Below, piece after piece: positions 2,360 through 62,155 of a stretch of DNA of 64,000 bases (positions are counted from its first letter, which is position 1; each line of letters starts with the position of its first letter). The notes under the pieces are model-generated. The model was not told the origin of the DNA. It ran no database searches and saw only the letters and a list, made by a program, of their open reading frames with translations. The stretch spans positions 1-64,000 of the forward strand of contig OMXC01000011.1 of NCBI GenBank assembly GCA_900314925.1, in the 5' to 3' direction. Position numbers and translations under genes: made by a program. This stretch comes from an uncultured Bacteroidales bacterium. Its GTDB lineage: Bacteria; Bacteroidota; Bacteroidia; Bacteroidales; P3.

Positions 2360-2724
2360 AAACAATCGGAAACATCATCTGGGTCCTCTTCGGAGGCCTC
2401 GAACTGGCGCTGGGTTACTTTGTCTCAGGTGTCGCGCTGTGCCTCACCATCATCGGCATTCCCTTCGGACTGCAAATCTTCAAGCTGGGCCTGCTGGCAC
2501 TGTGGCCTTTTGGACACAATGTGAACAAAATGGAGGGTAAAAATGGATGCCTCAACACTTTGATGAACGTGCTGTGGTTCATCTTCGGCGGCATCGGCAT
2601 TGTACTGTCGCACTTCTTCCTTGGGGTGCTGTTCTACATCACCATAGTGGGCATCCCCTTCGGCAAGCAACACTTCAAACTGGCCCACATCGCCCTGACG
2701 CCTTTCGGCCGCGAGATTGTCTAA
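2356..2724 (+). CDS. yccF: YccF family inner membrane protein
   Basis: A 122-residue membrane protein made of two similar halves. Each has a hydrophobic stretch ending in a GIPFG signature (TIIGIPFGLQIFKL and TIVGIPFGKQHFKL), characteristic of the YccF (DUF307) family. Its function is not established. The start overlaps the prmC stop by 4 bp, so translation is probably coupled. The 3' end overlaps the convergent dtd gene by 4 bp. Confidence 0.88.
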   Translation: MKTIGNIIWVLFGGLELALGYFVSGVALCLTIIGIPFGLQIFKLGLLALWPFGHNVNKMEGKNGCLNTLMNVLWFIFGGIGIVLSHFFLGVLFYITIVGIPFGKQHFKLAHIALTPFGREIV

Positions 2725-3182
2725 AACCGTTCGCGCAGCTGCGAGTCCATGATGATGGTCACAGGCCCGTCGTTGACGAGGCTTACCTTCATGTCGGCAC
2801 CGAACGTGCCCGTCTGTATCTCTTTGCCGTAGAGCGACTGCAGCTTGGCGACGAACTTCTCGTACATCGGCACCGCGAAGTCGGGCTTTGAGGCGTGTAT
2901 GTAGCTCGGGCGGTTGCCCTTCTTGGTGGAGGCCATCAGAGTGAACTGGCTCACCACCAGTATGCCGCTGCCTGCCACTTCTGTCACCGGCAGGTTCATC
3001 ACTCCTTCGCTGTCGTCGAATATGCGCAGCTTCATCACCTTCTGGCACAGGTACTCTATGTCCTCGTCGGTGTCCTCGTCGCAGATGCCCACGAGAATCA
3101 TCAGTCCCTGGCCGATGGACGACTTCAATGTGCCTCCGATGCTGACGGACGCCTCTTTTACACGCTGAAGAACTATTCTCAT
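2721..3182 (-). CDS. dtd: D-aminoacyl-tRNA deacylase
   Basis: Hydrolyses D-aminoacyl-tRNA (and mischarged glycyl-tRNA), protecting translation from D-amino acids. The 153-residue protein is full length. It has the two family motifs that form the active site: SQFTL (78-82) and the Gly-cisPro loop in NDGPVT (137-142). It opens with the usual MRIVLQRVKEASV. The start codon is immediately next to the left inverted repeat framing the GxxExxY gene, so any promoter for dtd must lie within or beyond that repeat. Confidence 0.95.
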   Translation of the reverse strand: MRIVLQRVKEASVSIGGTLKSSIGQGLMILVGICDEDTDEDIEYLCQKVMKLRIFDDSEGVMNLPVTEVAGSGILVVSQFTLMASTKKGNRPSYIHASKPDFAVPMYEKFVAKLQSLYGKEIQTGTFGADMKVSLVNDGPVTIIMDSQLRERF

Positions 3183-3234
3183 TTTTTTTACGTAAATGTC
3201 CGTAAATTGGTTCGTGAATTATCGTTAATTTTCA
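3183..3234 (+). repeat. Left inverted repeat flanking the GxxExxY gene
   Basis: An AT-rich segment of about 50 bp. About 38 of 50 positions match the reverse complement of 3663-3712. Inside, CGTRAATT-like words recur with CG at 3191, 3201, 3213 and 3223 (spacing 10, 12, 10, i.e. a 22-bp period). The same spacing occurs in the right arm. The inner end abuts the GxxExxY stop codon. Confidence 0.75.
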
Positions 3235-3660
3235 ATCCACAAACAACATGTTTTTATCTAATCGGCAGCAAAGATTCTTTTCTTCAATGTATGCGTAACG
3301 TTCTCCCTCCAATTTATCTGCTCCGAAATTAATCAGTAATCCTATGGGCATACGCGTAAGTCTAAGATAGTTGAAAAGCTGTGCCCGATGTGATGATGCC
3401 AATTCTTCGACTGATTTAAGCTCAACACAAATATCTCCTACTACCATGTCGATTCTGTATTTCTTCTCCAACAGATGCCCTTTGTAGTAGCAGTTCACTT
3501 CCTTTTCCAATACATTGTCAATACCACAATCAAGAAGTTCCAGATGGAGGCTTTCTGCATAAACCGCTTCCAACAATCCACTTCCTAACGTTCGGTGTAC
3601 ATCCATTGCAGCACCGATAATTTCATATACTATGTCTTCGTATTGTTTGTAGTTTACCAT
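3232..3660 (-). CDS. GxxExxY family protein
   Basis: A 142-residue member of the GxxExxY family, named for G-L-L-E-A-V-Y in the N-terminal part. A predicted nuclease-like core follows: the DMVVGDICVELKS segment has the D...ExK spacing of PDDEXK-type proteins. The function of the family is not established. The gene stands alone, is richer in AT than its neighbours, and is exactly framed by inverted repeats, which suggests arrival as a cassette. No transposase or integrase is present. Confidence 0.85.
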   Translation of the reverse strand: MVNYKQYEDIVYEIIGAAMDVHRTLGSGLLEAVYAESLHLELLDCGIDNVLEKEVNCYYKGHLLEKKYRIDMVVGDICVELKSVEELASSHRAQLFNYLRLTRMPIGLLINFGADKLEGERYAYIEEKNLCCRLDKNMLFVD

Positions 3661-3662
3661 CC

Positions 3663-3712
3663 CTCAATTTTCGGTAATTCACGAATCAATTTACGATAAT
3701 TCACGTTAAAAC
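3663..3712 (-). repeat. Right inverted repeat flanking the GxxExxY gene
   Basis: The reverse complement matches 3183-3232 at about 38 of 50 positions, including TAAATTG and TTCGTGAATTA blocks. It starts three bases before the GxxExxY start codon, so any promoter or operator for that gene must overlap it. Confidence 0.75.
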
Positions 3713-3722
3713 AAGCCGAAAA

Positions 3723-5996
3723 TCAGTTGTCAATTATCGTCAGTTTGGCGAACTTCAGCATCAGCTGCTTGTTGCCCACGCCGCCTTCGAAGAACACCGT
3801 CGCCTTGCGCGAGTCGGCGTTGCCCTCCACGGCTATCACCTTGCCGATGCCGAACTTGTCGTGCTGCACCTTCATGCCGGGCATTATGCTGCCTATCTGT
3901 GCCGGATTGTTGGGCACCGCCGGGCCACGCTGCACGAACACAGGCTTCACCGTCTTCTTAACAGGCTGCGGTTTGCCGATGTTCCACAGGCTGCTGGGCA
4001 TGGTCGGCTTCTGGCGGCGCGGTGTCTCGATGTAGCGTTCGTCGATCTCCTCCACAAAGCGGCTCACCTCGCCCCCCGTGCGCTGTCCGTTGTTGAAGCG
4101 TGTCTGTGCGTAGCTCAGCGTCACCTGCTTCTCGGCCCTCGTCACCGCCACGTAGAACAGCCTCCTTTCCTCCTCCAGCTCGGCCCTCGACGAGGCCAGG
4201 AACGACGGGAACAGCTGCTCCTCCATGCCCACCACGAAGACGTAGGGAAACTCCAGTCCCTTGGCCGCGTGTATGGTCATCAGGCTCACCTTGTCGGCAT
4301 CTTTGTCCTTGTCTTTGTCCTCGCTGGTGTAGAGCAGCACCTGCTGCAGGAACTCGTCGAGGGTGCGCATCCCTTTCTTCTCTGTCCCGTCGGGCTCGGG
4401 GCTCTCTTCCTCGCTCTCGCAGAACTCCTGCACGCCGTTGAGCAGCTCGTCGATGTTCTCTATGCGCTCCGCCATGTCGGGCTCGTCGGCTTCGCGCAGC
4501 GCCTTGATGATGCCGCTGGCATAGACAATCTGTTTGGCCAGCGTGAAGGCGTCCACCGTGGGCACCTGTGCCTCGAAGCGCTTTATCATGAACACGAAGT
4601 CCACGATTTTCTGTATCAGTCCGCTGTTGAGGCCGAGGCCGAAGTCCTGTATGTTCTCCAGCACCGTCCAGATGCTGATGTCGTTGTCTGCCGCCGCCAC
4701 GCGTATCTTGTCCATCGTCGTCTGGCCGATGCCGCGTGCGGGGAAGTTGATGATGCGCACCAGGCTCTCGTCGTCGTGTGGGTTCACAGCCAGGCGCATG
4801 TAGCTCAGCGCGTCCTTCACCTCCTTGCGGCCGTAGAACGAGATGCCCTGGTATATGCGGTACGGTATGTTGCTGCGGCGCAGCGAGTCCTCCACAGCGC
4901 GCGACAGCGAGTTCTGGCGGTAGAGGATGGCGAAGTCGCGGTATTCGGCGTCCTGCCCTATGTGTATGTCCTGTATAGAGTCTGCCACGCGGTTGCCCTC
5001 GTCGCGTTCGTCGTCGCAGCGCATCAGGCGTATGCGGCTGCCCTCGTCGTTGTCGCTCCACAGCTCCTTCTGTATCTGGTCGCGGTTGTGGCCTATGATG
5101 CTGTTGGCGGCGTTCACGATGGTCTTCGTGGAGCGGTAGTTCTGCTCCAGCTTGAAGAGCTTCATCTGCGGGTAGTCGCGCTTGAAGTTGAAGATGTTCT
5201 GTATGTTGGCTCCGCGGAAGGCGTAGATGCTCTGTGCGTCGTCGCCCACCACGCAGATGTTTTGGTGTCTGGCAGCCAATTTCTTGACGATGAGATACTG
5301 CGCATAGTTCGTGTCCTGGTACTCGTCAACCATGATGTGGCTGAACCGCTGCTGGTATTTGAGCAGCACGTCGGGGAAGTCCCTCAGCAGCACGTTCATG
5401 TTGAACAGCAGGTCGTCGAAGTCCATGGCGTTGCTGTTGTGCAGCCGCTGGTCGTACATGGTGTAGATCTGTCCCACGGCGGGCCGCTTGGCGTCCTGGT
5501 CGGTCTGGTATATTTCCGGGTTCTCCATGTAGTCCTTCGGCGAGAGCAGGTTGCTCTTGGCCATCGAGATGCGCCCCAGCACGTAGCTGGGCTTGTAGGC
5601 CTTGGGGTCGAGGTTCAGCTGCTTCACAATCTGCTTGATGGCCGCCTTCTGGTCGTCGGTGTCGTAGATGGTGAAGCTGTTGGTGTAGCCCAGGCGGTTG
5701 CCGTCGGCGCGCAGCACGCGGGCGAAGACCGAGTGGAAGGTGCCCATCCAGATGTTGCGTGCCTCGGGGCCCACCAGCTTGATGATGCGCTCCTTCATCT
5801 CGCCTGCCGCCTTGTTGGTGAAGGTCAGCGCCAGTATGCGGAAGGGGTCCACGCCCTTCTCTATCAGGTGCGCTATGCGGTAGGTCAGCGTGCGTGTCTT
5901 GCCGCTGCCGGCGCCGGCGATGATCATCACAGGCCCTTCCGTGCACTCCGCCGCCTCGCGCTGCGGTTCGTTCAGTTGTGCTAATAGTTCGCTCAC
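3723..5996 (-). CDS. uvrD: UvrD/PcrA-type superfamily 1 DNA helicase
   Basis: ATP-dependent 3'-5' DNA helicase for repair and for clearing replication blocks. Visible motifs include QREAAEC (Q motif), GAGSGKT (Walker A), DEYQDTNYAQ (Walker B), QNYRS, MTIHAAKGLEF and VAVTRAEKQ. A C-terminal Tudor-like tail (GMKVQHDKFGIGKVIAVEG) is typical of PcrA/UvrD. I chose the GTG at 5996 (MSELLAQLNEPQ), which fits the family's N-terminus. A TTG at 6017 would add seven residues but falls in the T-run of the nrdJ terminator. About 757 residues. Confidence 0.9.
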   Translation of the reverse strand: MSELLAQLNEPQREAAECTEGPVMIIAGAGSGKTRTLTYRIAHLIEKGVDPFRILALTFTNKAAGEMKERIIKLVGPEARNIWMGTFHSVFARVLRADGNRLGYTNSFTIYDTDDQKAAIKQIVKQLNLDPKAYKPSYVLGRISMAKSNLLSPKDYMENPEIYQTDQDAKRPAVGQIYTMYDQRLHNSNAMDFDDLLFNMNVLLRDFPDVLLKYQQRFSHIMVDEYQDTNYAQYLIVKKLAARHQNICVVGDDAQSIYAFRGANIQNIFNFKRDYPQMKLFKLEQNYRSTKTIVNAANSIIGHNRDQIQKELWSDNDEGSRIRLMRCDDERDEGNRVADSIQDIHIGQDAEYRDFAILYRQNSLSRAVEDSLRRSNIPYRIYQGISFYGRKEVKDALSYMRLAVNPHDDESLVRIINFPARGIGQTTMDKIRVAAADNDISIWTVLENIQDFGLGLNSGLIQKIVDFVFMIKRFEAQVPTVDAFTLAKQIVYASGIIKALREADEPDMAERIENIDELLNGVQEFCESEEESPEPDGTEKKGMRTLDEFLQQVLLYTSEDKDKDKDADKVSLMTIHAAKGLEFPYVFVVGMEEQLFPSFLASSRAELEEERRLFYVAVTRAEKQVTLSYAQTRFNNGQRTGGEVSRFVEEIDERYIETPRRQKPTMPSSLWNIGKPQPVKKTVKPVFVQRGPAVPNNPAQIGSIMPGMKVQHDKFGIGKVIAVEGNADSRKATVFFEGGVGNKQLMLKFAKLTIIDN

Positions 5997-6017
5997 TGTG
6001 TCGTCTCTTTTAGTCAA

Positions 6018-8944: not shown

Positions 8945-9065
8945 TACGGACCCCCTTCGGCATTTCTACGGTATTTCTACGGTATTTCTACGCTTTTCCA
9001 CTGAAGAACTACCGTAGAACTGCCGTAAAGCGGCCGTTGGGGAGCCGGGGAAGGGCCGTATGGCA
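8945..9065. repeat. Palindromic array of eleven 11-bp units
   Basis: The sequence divides without a slip into eleven 11-mers: TACGGACCCCC, TTCGGCATTTC, TACGGTATTTC twice, TACGCTTTTCC, a central ACTGAAGAACT, then ACCGTAGAACT and four units starting GCCGT or GCCGG. The right half is roughly the inverted form of the left (TACGG against CCGTA). It fills part of the gap of about 500 bp between nrdJ and mrdA, which otherwise holds the nrdJ leader and no gene. The first 23 bases are identical to 35178-35200. Confidence 0.85.
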
Positions 9066-20734: not shown

Positions 20735-20822
20735 ACCCTCAATAACGCCGCAACCCCCTTTTTATTGCCCCGCCGTCCAATAAAATAATCGCCGCCCCTG
20801 CTGCGCCCGCCGTCCATCGTCA

Positions 20823-20912
20823 TTTCGACAATACATCAACGATACTTCAACAATAGTTTTACGATAGCTATCGTTGAAATATCGTTGAAGTATCGTTGAA
20901 GTATCGTTGAAA
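20823..20912. repeat. Near-perfect palindrome of eight 11-bp units
   Basis: Four units on the right arm, TATCGTTGAAA, TATCGTTGAAG, TATCGTTGAAG and TATCGTTGAAA (20869-20912), face four diverged inverted units on the left arm (20823-20866). A 2-bp gap lies in the palindromic centre GATAGCTATC. The right arm is nearly uniform while the left is mutated. It lies in the gap of about 450 bp between the TPR lipoprotein and the T9SS cargo gene, which otherwise holds only the latter's promoter and leader. Confidence 0.88.
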
Positions 20913-21039
20913 TGAGCATTGATAGACGGCTGGAAAGTCATGCAATAAACCGTCTGGTTCGGGTACTAAACCTTCAGGACAGCCACCGGAGCGGAAGGCC
21001 TCGCGCCGGCGGCGGAAATCAAAAAAAAACATAAAATAG

Positions 21040-23994: not shown

Positions 23995-24021
23995 GTGTTG
24001 TTTAGCGGAGGGAAAAGAAAA

Positions 24022-24124
24022 GGAGTTAAGAAGTTAAGAAGTTAAGAAGTTAAGAAGTTAAGACAATACCGCGTCCTGCACATTTGTCTTAACTCCTTAA
24101 CTCCTTAACTTCTTAACTCCTTAA
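24022..24124. repeat. 8-bp GTTAAGAA repeats facing TTAACTCC repeats
   Basis: Left arm: about 4.8 copies of GTTAAGAA (24025-24062). Right arm: TTAACTCC, TTAACTCC, TTAACTTC and TTAACTCC (about 24089-24124). GACAA/TTGTC closes a 17-nt loop. The arms can pair over about 40 bp. It lies between convergent genes, reaching almost to the yicC stop. Confidence 0.85.
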
Positions 24125-35166: not shown

Positions 35167-35254
35167 TACGGACCCCCTACGGACCCCCTTCGGCATTTCT
35201 TCAGTGGAACGCCGTAGAAGGGCCGAAGAAAGGTCGAGGAGGGGCCGAAGGGAC
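35167..35254. repeat. Palindromic array of eight 11-bp units
   Basis: Eight 11-mers in register: TACGGACCCCC twice, TTCGGCATTTC, the centre TTCAGTGGAAC, then GCCGTAGAAGG, GCCGAAGAAAG, GTCGAGGAGGG and GCCGAAGGGAC, which are inverted forms of the left units. Bases 35178-35200 are identical to 8945-8967. The centre word TTCAGTGGAA occurs inverted in the array at 8945-9065. Confidence 0.88.
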
Positions 35255-60310: not shown

Positions 60311-61441
60311 ATGACTATCGCAGCATTGGTATCGGGAGGCGTGGACAGTTCGGTGGTGGTGCATCTGCTCAAGGAGCAGGGCTACACGCCGGACATCTTC
60401 TATATCCGCATAGGTATGGAGGACGAAGAAGGGTATATCGACTGTCCGGCGGAGGAGGATATCGAGATCACACAGTGGATAGCCAAGAAATACGGCTGCC
60501 GCTTCGAGGAGGTCAACCTGCACAAAGAGTATTGGGACAACGTGGTGAGCTACACCATAGAGAGTGTGCGCAAGGGTCTGACGCCCAATCCCGACGTGAT
60601 GTGCAACAAGCTCATCAAGTTCGGTGCCTTCGACGACAAGCGAGGCCACGACTACGACCGCATAGCCACAGGCCACTATGCGCGGACGGAGCAAGTGGAC
60701 AGTGGACAGTGGACAGTGGACAGTGGTGCTACGCAGGACGGTGGCGTACAGCAGGGCACAGATTACTCCTCGCCAATAACCTTCCTGGCTACGGCCAAAG
60801 ACCCTGTGAAGGACCAGACGGATTTCCTGTCGCAGCTCAGCTACAAGCAGATACAGAAGCTTATGTTCCCCATCGGTCATCTCATGAAGAGTGAGGTGCG
60901 CGACATTGCCCACGAGGCACACCTGCCGAGTGCCGACCGCAAGGACTCGCAGGGTATCTGCTTTCTGGGCAAGATAAACTACAACGACTTCATACGCCGT
61001 TACCTCGGCGAGCGCGAGGGCAAGATTGTGGAGCTGGAGACCGGCAAGGTGCTGGGCACGCACAAAGGCTATTGGTTCCACACCATAGGTCAGCGCAAGG
61101 GCCTCTACCTCAGCGGCGGCCCGTGGTTTGTGGTGCGCAAGGACATAGAGGAGAACGTGCTGTATGTGAGTCAGGGCTACGACCCGCGCGAGCAGTACGG
61201 CGACCGCATCACCCTCATGGGCTTTCACCCGCTGGCGCCCATCACGCTCACGCTGCCGTTAGAGGTGAAGTTCAAGATACGCCACACGCCGGAGTTCCAT
61301 CCCGGGCGCCTCGTGCAGCTGCCCGACGGTCTAGTGCAGATAGAGAGCGAGGAGCTCATACAAGGCATCGCCGCCGGCCAGTATGCCACCATCTATGATG
61401 CCGACGCCCACTTGGTGATAGCTTCCGGTATGATTGTTTAG
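60311..61441 (+). CDS. mnmA: tRNA-specific 2-thiouridylase
   Basis: Thiolates U34 of tRNA-Lys, -Glu and -Gln. The 376-residue protein has the ATP-pyrophosphatase PP-loop [26 protein letters not shown] (catalytic Cys), [26 protein letters not shown] (second Cys) and the C-terminal barrel. Between GHYAR and the DPVKDQ motif is a loop ([15 protein letters not shown]) built from 7-bp GTGGACA repeats. The frame survives. Confidence 0.95.
60695..60726 (+). repeat. 7-bp GTGGACA repeats inside mnmA
   Basis: Four perfect GTGGACA copies plus GTGG. As 7 is not a multiple of 3, each copy is read in a different frame, giving [11 protein letters not shown]. Gain or loss of one unit would shift the frame of mnmA. 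Confidence 0.9.
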
Positions 61442-61444
61442 CAT

Positions 61445-62155
61445 ATGCAGTTATTCTATAGTAAAGACATATCATCCAGCGGTTTCTGCACCCTCGACGC
61501 CGAGGAGAGCCGCCACGCTGTGCGTGTGCTGCGTATGCGCGAAGGCGACGCCATCCACGTCACCGACGGGTGTGGCAACCTCTACCGATGCCGCATCGTG
61601 CAGGCCGACGACCGTGCCTGCGTCGTAGAGGTGGCGGAGCAAGAATTCTCAATTCCCAATTCCCAATCCTCAATTCACTTGGCTGTGGCGCCCACCAAGA
61701 ACCCGGCGCGCATGGAGTGGCTCGTGGAGAAGGCTGTGGAGATAGGGGTGGGGGAGATCACCCTTTTGCTGTGCGACCATAGCGAGCGCACGTTCCTCAA
61801 GACAGAACGCCTCGAGAAACTGGCCGTCAGCGCCATGAAGCAGAGCCTGCACCTCACGCTGCCGCACATCAACCCCGCCGTCTCGCTCCGCGAGTGGGTG
61901 GGGGCGCAGGCCAATGGCCAGAAGTTCATAGCCCATTGCGAGGCCGACAGGCCGCGCATGCCGCTGGCGGCGGCTCTGCAGCCGGGCATGGATGCTGTGG
62001 TGCTCATAGGTCCCGAGGGTGACTTCTCGGAGGAAGAGATAGCGCTGGCCCTCGATGCCGGCTTCACGCCTGTGAGTCTTGGACCCAGCCGTCTGCGCAC
62101 CGAGACGGCGGCGTTGTATGCCGTTGTGGCGTTCAACTTGATAAACGATAAATAA
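61445..62155 (+). CDS. rsmE: 16S rRNA (uracil1498-N3)-methyltransferase
   Basis: Methylates U1498 of 16S rRNA. The 236-residue SPOUT protein has the N-terminal PUA-like part (ESRHAVRVLRMREGD), KNPARMEWLVEKAVEIGV, MKQSLHLTLP, and the knotted SAM site LIGPEGDFSEEE with SLGPSRLRTETA. The linker EFSIPNSQSSIHL is encoded by five AATTCCC-like heptamers. It lies 3 bp after mnmA. Confidence 0.94.
   Translation: MQLFYSKDISSSGFCTLDAEESRHAVRVLRMREGDAIHVTDGCGNLYRCRIVQADDRACVVEVAEQEFSIPNSQSSIHLAVAPTKNPARMEWLVEKAVEIGVGEITLLLCDHSERTFLKTERLEKLAVSAMKQSLHLTLPHINPAVSLREWVGAQANGQKFIAHCEADRPRMPLAAALQPGMDAVVLIGPEGDFSEEEIALALDAGFTPVSLGPSRLRTETAALYAVVAFNLINDK
61644..61678 (+). repeat. 7-bp AATTCCC repeats inside rsmE
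   Basis: AATTCTC, AATTCCC, AATTCCC, AATCCTC and AATTCAC: five consecutive heptamers. They encode the linker between the PUA-like and SPOUT domains of RsmE. Confidence 0.88.

Follow-up and report, generated by a model that had tools for sequence, protein, structure and literature searches.

A probable mobile palindromic element formed by a GxxExxY gene between inverted word arrays

Introduction

RAYT genes and their REP or REPIN sequences combine one small gene with short inverted repeats on both sides, and their extragenic, gene-less palindromic doublets outnumber the gene (PMC3116915, PMC3733652). The intervening sequences of 23S rRNA are suspected selfish elements, short and with terminal inverted repeats around one small ORF, whose product is the four-helix bundle S23p (TIGR02436; PMC4990558). 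In MITEs of DDE transposons, such as BrickBuilt (PMC4596501), gene-less palindromes with inverted ends occur beside a gene-bearing form.

Here we describe a unit of about 540 bp in a 64-kb window, the whole stretch of DNA that was analysed, from an uncultured Bacteroidales bacterium. It resembles RAYT loci in its single small gene between inverted repeats, in the excess of gene-less palindromes over genes and in the lack of a consistent target duplication. Yet RAYT is a Y1 HUH enzyme, whereas the sole gene of the unit encodes GxxExxY, a predicted PD-(D/E)XK nuclease; REPs consist of a single GC-rich hairpin with a tag, whereas the arms of the unit are arrays of short words; and the RAYT-like loci of the genomes we examined look different from GxxExxY loci. 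With the 23S rRNA intervening sequences the unit shares the small size, the single ORF, the terminal inverted repeats and a comparable suspicion of selfishness, but it lies at a seam between two protein genes, uvrD and dtd, rather than within 23S rRNA, and its ORF is unrelated to S23p. It is like MITEs in having gene-less palindromic forms, but encodes no DDE transposase and has arms built from tandem words. BrickBuilt of P. gingivalis was considered as a relative and rejected for its IS5-type ends and 23-nt repeats (PMC4596501).

The conserved-hypothetical families GxxExxY and TIGR02436 are abundant, with up to 12 and 17 matches, respectively, per genome sampled, and have no assigned function. 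If they are tied to mobile palindromes, both families gain a function and many unnamed short intergenic repeats an explanation; the tie would also bear on the movement of 23S rRNA intervening sequences and would provide nucleases whose likely recognition words stand in the adjacent DNA. In a search confined to open papers, two name GxxExxY and one its accessions, none of them, judged by title and abstract, describing GxxExxY genes with word-repeat arms, and we found there neither the arm words nor an account of four-helix or Cas4-like mobile elements of this kind.

The uvrD-dtd locus

In the window, dtd (PF02580, D-Tyr-tRNA deacylase; 2721..3182) and the uvrD/pcrA helicase gene (3723..6017), both on the minus strand, are separated by an inserted stretch of 540 bp (3183..3722), which reaches from the start codon of dtd, its downstream neighbor, to the stop codon of uvrD, its upstream neighbor; these codons form the edges of the insertion, and the ends of the element itself are approximate. 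The stretch carries on the same strand a gene for a GxxExxY protein of 142 residues (3232..3660). Its downstream, left arm (3182..3230, plus strand) contains the words CGTAAATG (3191-3198), CGTAAATT (3201-3208), CGTGAATT (3213-3220) and CGTTAATT (3223-3230); the upstream, right arm (3666..3714, minus strand) contains CGAAAATT (3673-3666), CGTGAATT (3683-3676), CGTAAATT (3695-3688) and CGTGAATT (3705-3698).

An earlier note, made from the sequence of the window, had described these arms, and its description holds. Where it had seen inverted arms of about 50 bp, we measured 49 nt with 80% complementarity, separated by 435 nt. The CGTRAATT-type words, for which it had given a spacing of 10-12-10 and a periodicity of 22 bp, start with their CG at 3191, 3201, 3213 and 3223 and, on the minus strand, at 3705, 3695, 3683 and 3673, and TRF reports a period of 22; since the word starts of both arms fit, we regard spacing and period as real. 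The words point inward. The left arm ends 1 bp from the stop codon of the GxxExxY gene and the right arm lies 3-5 bp from its start codon, as the note had placed them.

With a score of 29, this inverted repeat is among the top four of the window, the other strong ones being gene-less word-repeat palindromes; three 3-mer-block shuffles of the window yielded a single repeat altogether, with a score of 16. Aligned to each other, the two flanks of the gene scored 31, against 18 for the 99th percentile of random intervals from the tested loci. No Rfam match was found within the window. Pairing of the arms as an RNA stem was considered and, judged by eye, is unlikely, because the differences between the arms fall at variable letters of the words.

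The GxxExxY protein

The gene product belongs to the GxxExxY family, with matches to TIGR04256 (E-value 2.9e-37, 127.6 bits, cut-off 35) and to PF13366 (E-value 1.1e-34, 119.7 bits, cut-off 22), its only match in Pfam. Across 42 sequences from relatives, E31, Y34, D71, E80, Y98, G107, N111 and F112 are invariant, and K82 and Q94 are present in at least 90%. We take E31, D71, E80, K82, Q94 and Y98 to form an intact PD-(D/E)XK active site together with the QxxxY motif of RecB and Cas4 nucleases.

A structure model of the protein (pLDDT 95.3) has as its best structural match the Cas4 protein SSO0001 (4ic1; Foldseek E-value 3e-4; VIA Z-score 9.1, rmsd 4.2, 99 aligned residues), with weaker matches to RecE and lambda exonuclease. 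The fold and the D...ExK...QxxxY residues are common to both proteins, although Cas4/RecB-type nucleases have about 200 residues and Cas4 has cas genes as neighbors, whereas the GxxExxY gene is located inside a mobile palindrome between uvrD and dtd. By sequence and model, GxxExxY is thus a Cas4/RecB-like protein of the PD-(D/E)XK type whose catalytic residues are intact and for which nuclease activity is predicted.

Filled and empty insertion sites

Throughout, G000 denotes the genome of the window, other G numbers its relatives and L numbers individual loci. The gene and its arms are located exactly at the uvrD-dtd junction in G000, G008 and G015. In relatives of the same genus (L094, L096, L104, L105, L108), uvrD and dtd share an ATGA overlap and have zero spacer. 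One relative (L118) carries at this junction a gene-less palindrome built from CATGAATT-type words. We looked for relatives with the gene but without the repeats at this junction, which would have spoken against a unit, and saw none.

When 13 genomes were searched with the flanking DNA of eight elements, six of these (L001, L002, L004, L046, L065, L086) proved to have both filled and empty sites; orthologous sites of both kinds, as a self-mobilizing element would leave them, therefore exist. At the L046 site, four genomes carry the element, seven are empty and free of repeats, and one more has a gene-less palindrome of another family. At several insertion sites the stop and start codons of the neighboring genes overlap or nearly do so. 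The gene with its arms is an insertion, the arms belong to the inserted unit, and the junctions examined are gene seams. Target-site overlaps of 9-13 bp were seen at two sites and were absent or ambiguous at others.

The copies in G000 and G008 are identical over 701 bp (3055..3755 of the window, a tract without strand), which comprise the element and short flanks, while identity directly outside is about 87% and in the surroundings mostly 87-90%. Since an identical tract lies amid diverged surroundings, the window copy was exchanged recently between species together with its short flanks. At L046 (G015:C8), the gene next to the downstream arm appears to start inside this arm after insertion at the seam; because the apparent start codon falls within it, the arm would have supplied a new N-terminus.

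Arms of other GxxExxY genes

Of the 147 GxxExxY genes that we tested, which come from many phyla, 100 lie between word-repeat arms. Their flank-to-flank alignments exceeded the 99th percentile of random intervals from their own loci for 51 of 71 genes in relatives and for 49 of 76 in a scan of genome_contigs, which sampled Bacteroidota, Acidobacteria, Planctomycetes, Cyanobacteria, Geobacter, Lentisphaerae, Ignavibacteria, Opitutaceae, Anaerolineae and others with a narrow alignment that favors members with the GPGLLE motif; about a third of the genes fall short of this threshold. An absence of repeats around all other GxxExxY genes, which would have weakened the earlier note, is therefore not what we observe. 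For the 71 genes of relatives, the upstream flank and the reverse-complemented downstream flank aligned with a mean score of 26, compared to 10.9 for mismatched pairs. CRYNRAK-type words are enriched about threefold (16-17 per kb versus 5-6) and are oriented inward on both sides. Autocorrelation showed only a modest excess, at lags of 8-10, because the word period varies among families.

GxxExxY subfamilies differ in their arm words, but where related proteins occur at unrelated loci, their words are related too. Among loci without a common neighbor gene, the similarity of the arms rises with protein identity: 41% of the locus pairs at 65-80% identity have similar arms, and 73% of those above 80% (11 pairs), with control flanks 750-900 bp away remaining flat. 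G000 itself has four GxxExxY genes, each set between such arms, whose words differ; three pass the threshold and L002 stays below it, although words are visible there by eye. The fourth gene, L004 (G000:C27:14351-14690), appears frameshifted, with partial matches in two frames and well-kept arms, and looks like a decaying copy of an element. Elsewhere, L071 (G027:C71:9088-10029) is a tandem pair of GxxExxY genes spaced by about 600 bp, and at 18 of the 71 loci strong direct repeats occur between the gene flanks.

Gene-less copies

The arm word GACAAGAAAG of element L070 has 32 matches at about 16 places in G002, one of them with the GxxExxY gene, and few matches in nine congeners of G002. The AACGGCGAATT family, with the arm AACGGCGAATTNNNCGAATT, has 26, 47, 54 and 53 matches in G000, G002, G008 and G012, respectively, against 0-1 for a reversed-pattern control. 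The copies we read in G012 are mostly palindromes of 138-157 bp with the ends AACGGC and CGCCGTT and unrelated flanks, and their two halves can be aligned with the two arms of L032, the gene-bearing element of the same genome. The palindromes of about 140-150 bp thus match the element minus its gene, and at least one family has many such copies. One of them forms a long hairpin when folded with DNA parameters (z -8.4).

Dispersed gene-less palindromes, as known from RAYT/REPIN, thus occur for two related families. The window's own word family has left only a few degenerate relics in its genome. In G008, a gene-less palindrome TAACCG...CGGTTA is found within the coding sequence of uvrD (G008:C26 21858-21965, corresponding to window 4340-4420); it resembles the arms of L065, the GxxExxY element of G008 itself.

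Four-helix elements

Unexpectedly, TIGR02436, a family unrelated to GxxExxY, shares the layout of a gene between arms and has words of its own: its proteins occur in 53 of 61 relatives, and 40 of the 50 genes tested have word-repeat arms. The arms of the two protein types are similar in only 0.08% of GxxExxY/TIGR02436 cross-pairs, compared to 4.6% and 6.7% of pairs within a type, and most gene-less copies tested match the arms of one type clearly better. Since the two vocabularies hardly mix, each protein is probably paired with its own words, and this separation is the best available evidence for such a pairing. Recognition of the arms by the GxxExxY protein is indirectly favored, because two unrelated protein families each have a word vocabulary of their own.

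Proposed mode of mobility

The suggestion that gene and arms move as a unit agrees with the empty uvrD-dtd sites, the six further filled/empty sites, the co-inheritance of arms and protein and the gene-less copies, and mobility of the unit is thus well supported. We propose that the ~540-bp unit is a small palindromic mobile element in its gene-bearing form, with the two inverted word arrays as its ends. The GxxExxY protein would bind the arms, either as duplex or as hairpin or cruciform, and cut there; the nuclease would most likely start the movement of its own element and of gene-less copies with matching arms, and the freed or copied palindrome would insert elsewhere without a consistent target-site duplication. 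The lifestyle would be like that of RAYT/REPIN, with unrelated enzymology. On balance, we consider it probable that the unit is a mobile palindromic element whose predicted nuclease recognizes its words and starts its movement. That GxxExxY itself is the catalyst is what we infer; as a mobility enzyme, however, a lone nuclease domain for which no strand-transfer partner is known would be unusual, and co-inheritance of arms and protein would also be expected if the gene were a passenger.

The best reading is that of a widespread class of mobile palindromes, each kept by a small protein that recognizes its own arms. Whether this extends further is a question on which we are evenly divided: GxxExxY and TIGR02436 elements may form a large unrecognized superclass of bacterial mobile palindromes, in which each protein would be the sequence-specific mobility factor for its own words, many short tandem words without a name in the intergenic DNA of bacteria (CACAGAG, CGCAAAG, CGCAGATT, CACGAATT, AGTGGTC, AATTGAG) would be gene-less relics, and movement would depend on a Cas4-like nuclease or a four-helix protein rather than on a known transposase, integrase or reverse transcriptase.

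Alternatively, the unit could be mobile through a RAYT/Y1 transposase, IS transposase or reverse transcriptase acting in trans, with GxxExxY as passenger or regulator. Gene-less copies by definition require a trans-acting factor and G000 has one Y1 transposase, but we consider this explanation unlikely. A survey that covered reverse transcriptases and Y1 transposases found no reverse transcriptase domain in G000, G001, G002, G008 and G015, and no Y1 transposase in G008 (88% complete), G009, G014 and G025, which carry elements. The six Y1 loci we read have GC-rich hairpins of their own, unlike the word arms; the arms vary with protein subfamily and protein type; and no duplicated bases were seen beside 13 gene-less copies, in contrast to most DDE elements. 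Enzymes supplied in trans, as the earlier note had envisaged, are unnecessary for gene-bearing copies, and the reverse transcriptase and Y1 candidates are disfavored by their absence from several element-bearing genomes and, for Y1, by these separate hairpins.

Its other suggestion was that the arms are operator iterons bound by the protein. A reading in which they are such operators, or else a transcript-processing structure, through which the bound protein controls its own toxin-, defense- or selfish-gene-like gene, with spread by ordinary horizontal exchange, would account for their position directly at the start and stop codons, for the joint exchange of the G000 and G008 copies with flanking DNA and for the capacity to form long hairpins. 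We nevertheless regard it as quite improbable, as it leaves unexplained why inverted arms occur on both sides of the gene, why dozens of palindromes lack the gene yet have defined ends and unrelated flanks, and why filled and empty sites lie at unrelated junctions. Least of all do we expect the gene to be cargo recombined into pre-existing intergenic palindromes by repeat-mediated homologous recombination: such palindromes are common here, and L118 and L265 carry them at sites filled elsewhere, but most empty sites are palindrome-free, as at the zero-spacer uvrD-dtd junctions and the L046 site described above, and the arms track the protein.

Other word repeats of the window

A gene-less palindrome of 8-bp words (AAGAAGTT) with the end ..AAGACAA at 24020-24124 of the window matches TIGR02436 arms (score 28 versus L221); at the corresponding junction, the palindrome of G008 is made of different words. 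At 20813-20922, words of 11 bp (ATCGTTGAAAT) form a perfectly nested palindrome without spacer, and two GC-rich palindromes of 11-bp words (CTACGGTATTT, TACGGACCCCC), at 8946-9037 and 35167-35250, have the loop motif CCACTGAAGAA in common, with a similar one in L011. These 11-bp-word palindromes showed no match to GxxExxY, four-helix or tested Y1-transposase arms, and the one at 20813-20922 possibly represents a further family without a known gene. Arrays of 7-bp words that resemble four-helix arms (AGTGGAC, AATTCCC, AGTTATG) are located inside open reading frames at 60694-60726, 61644-61676 and 1810-1840; the last lies in a prmC-like methyltransferase gene, where G008 has a longer array with different words.
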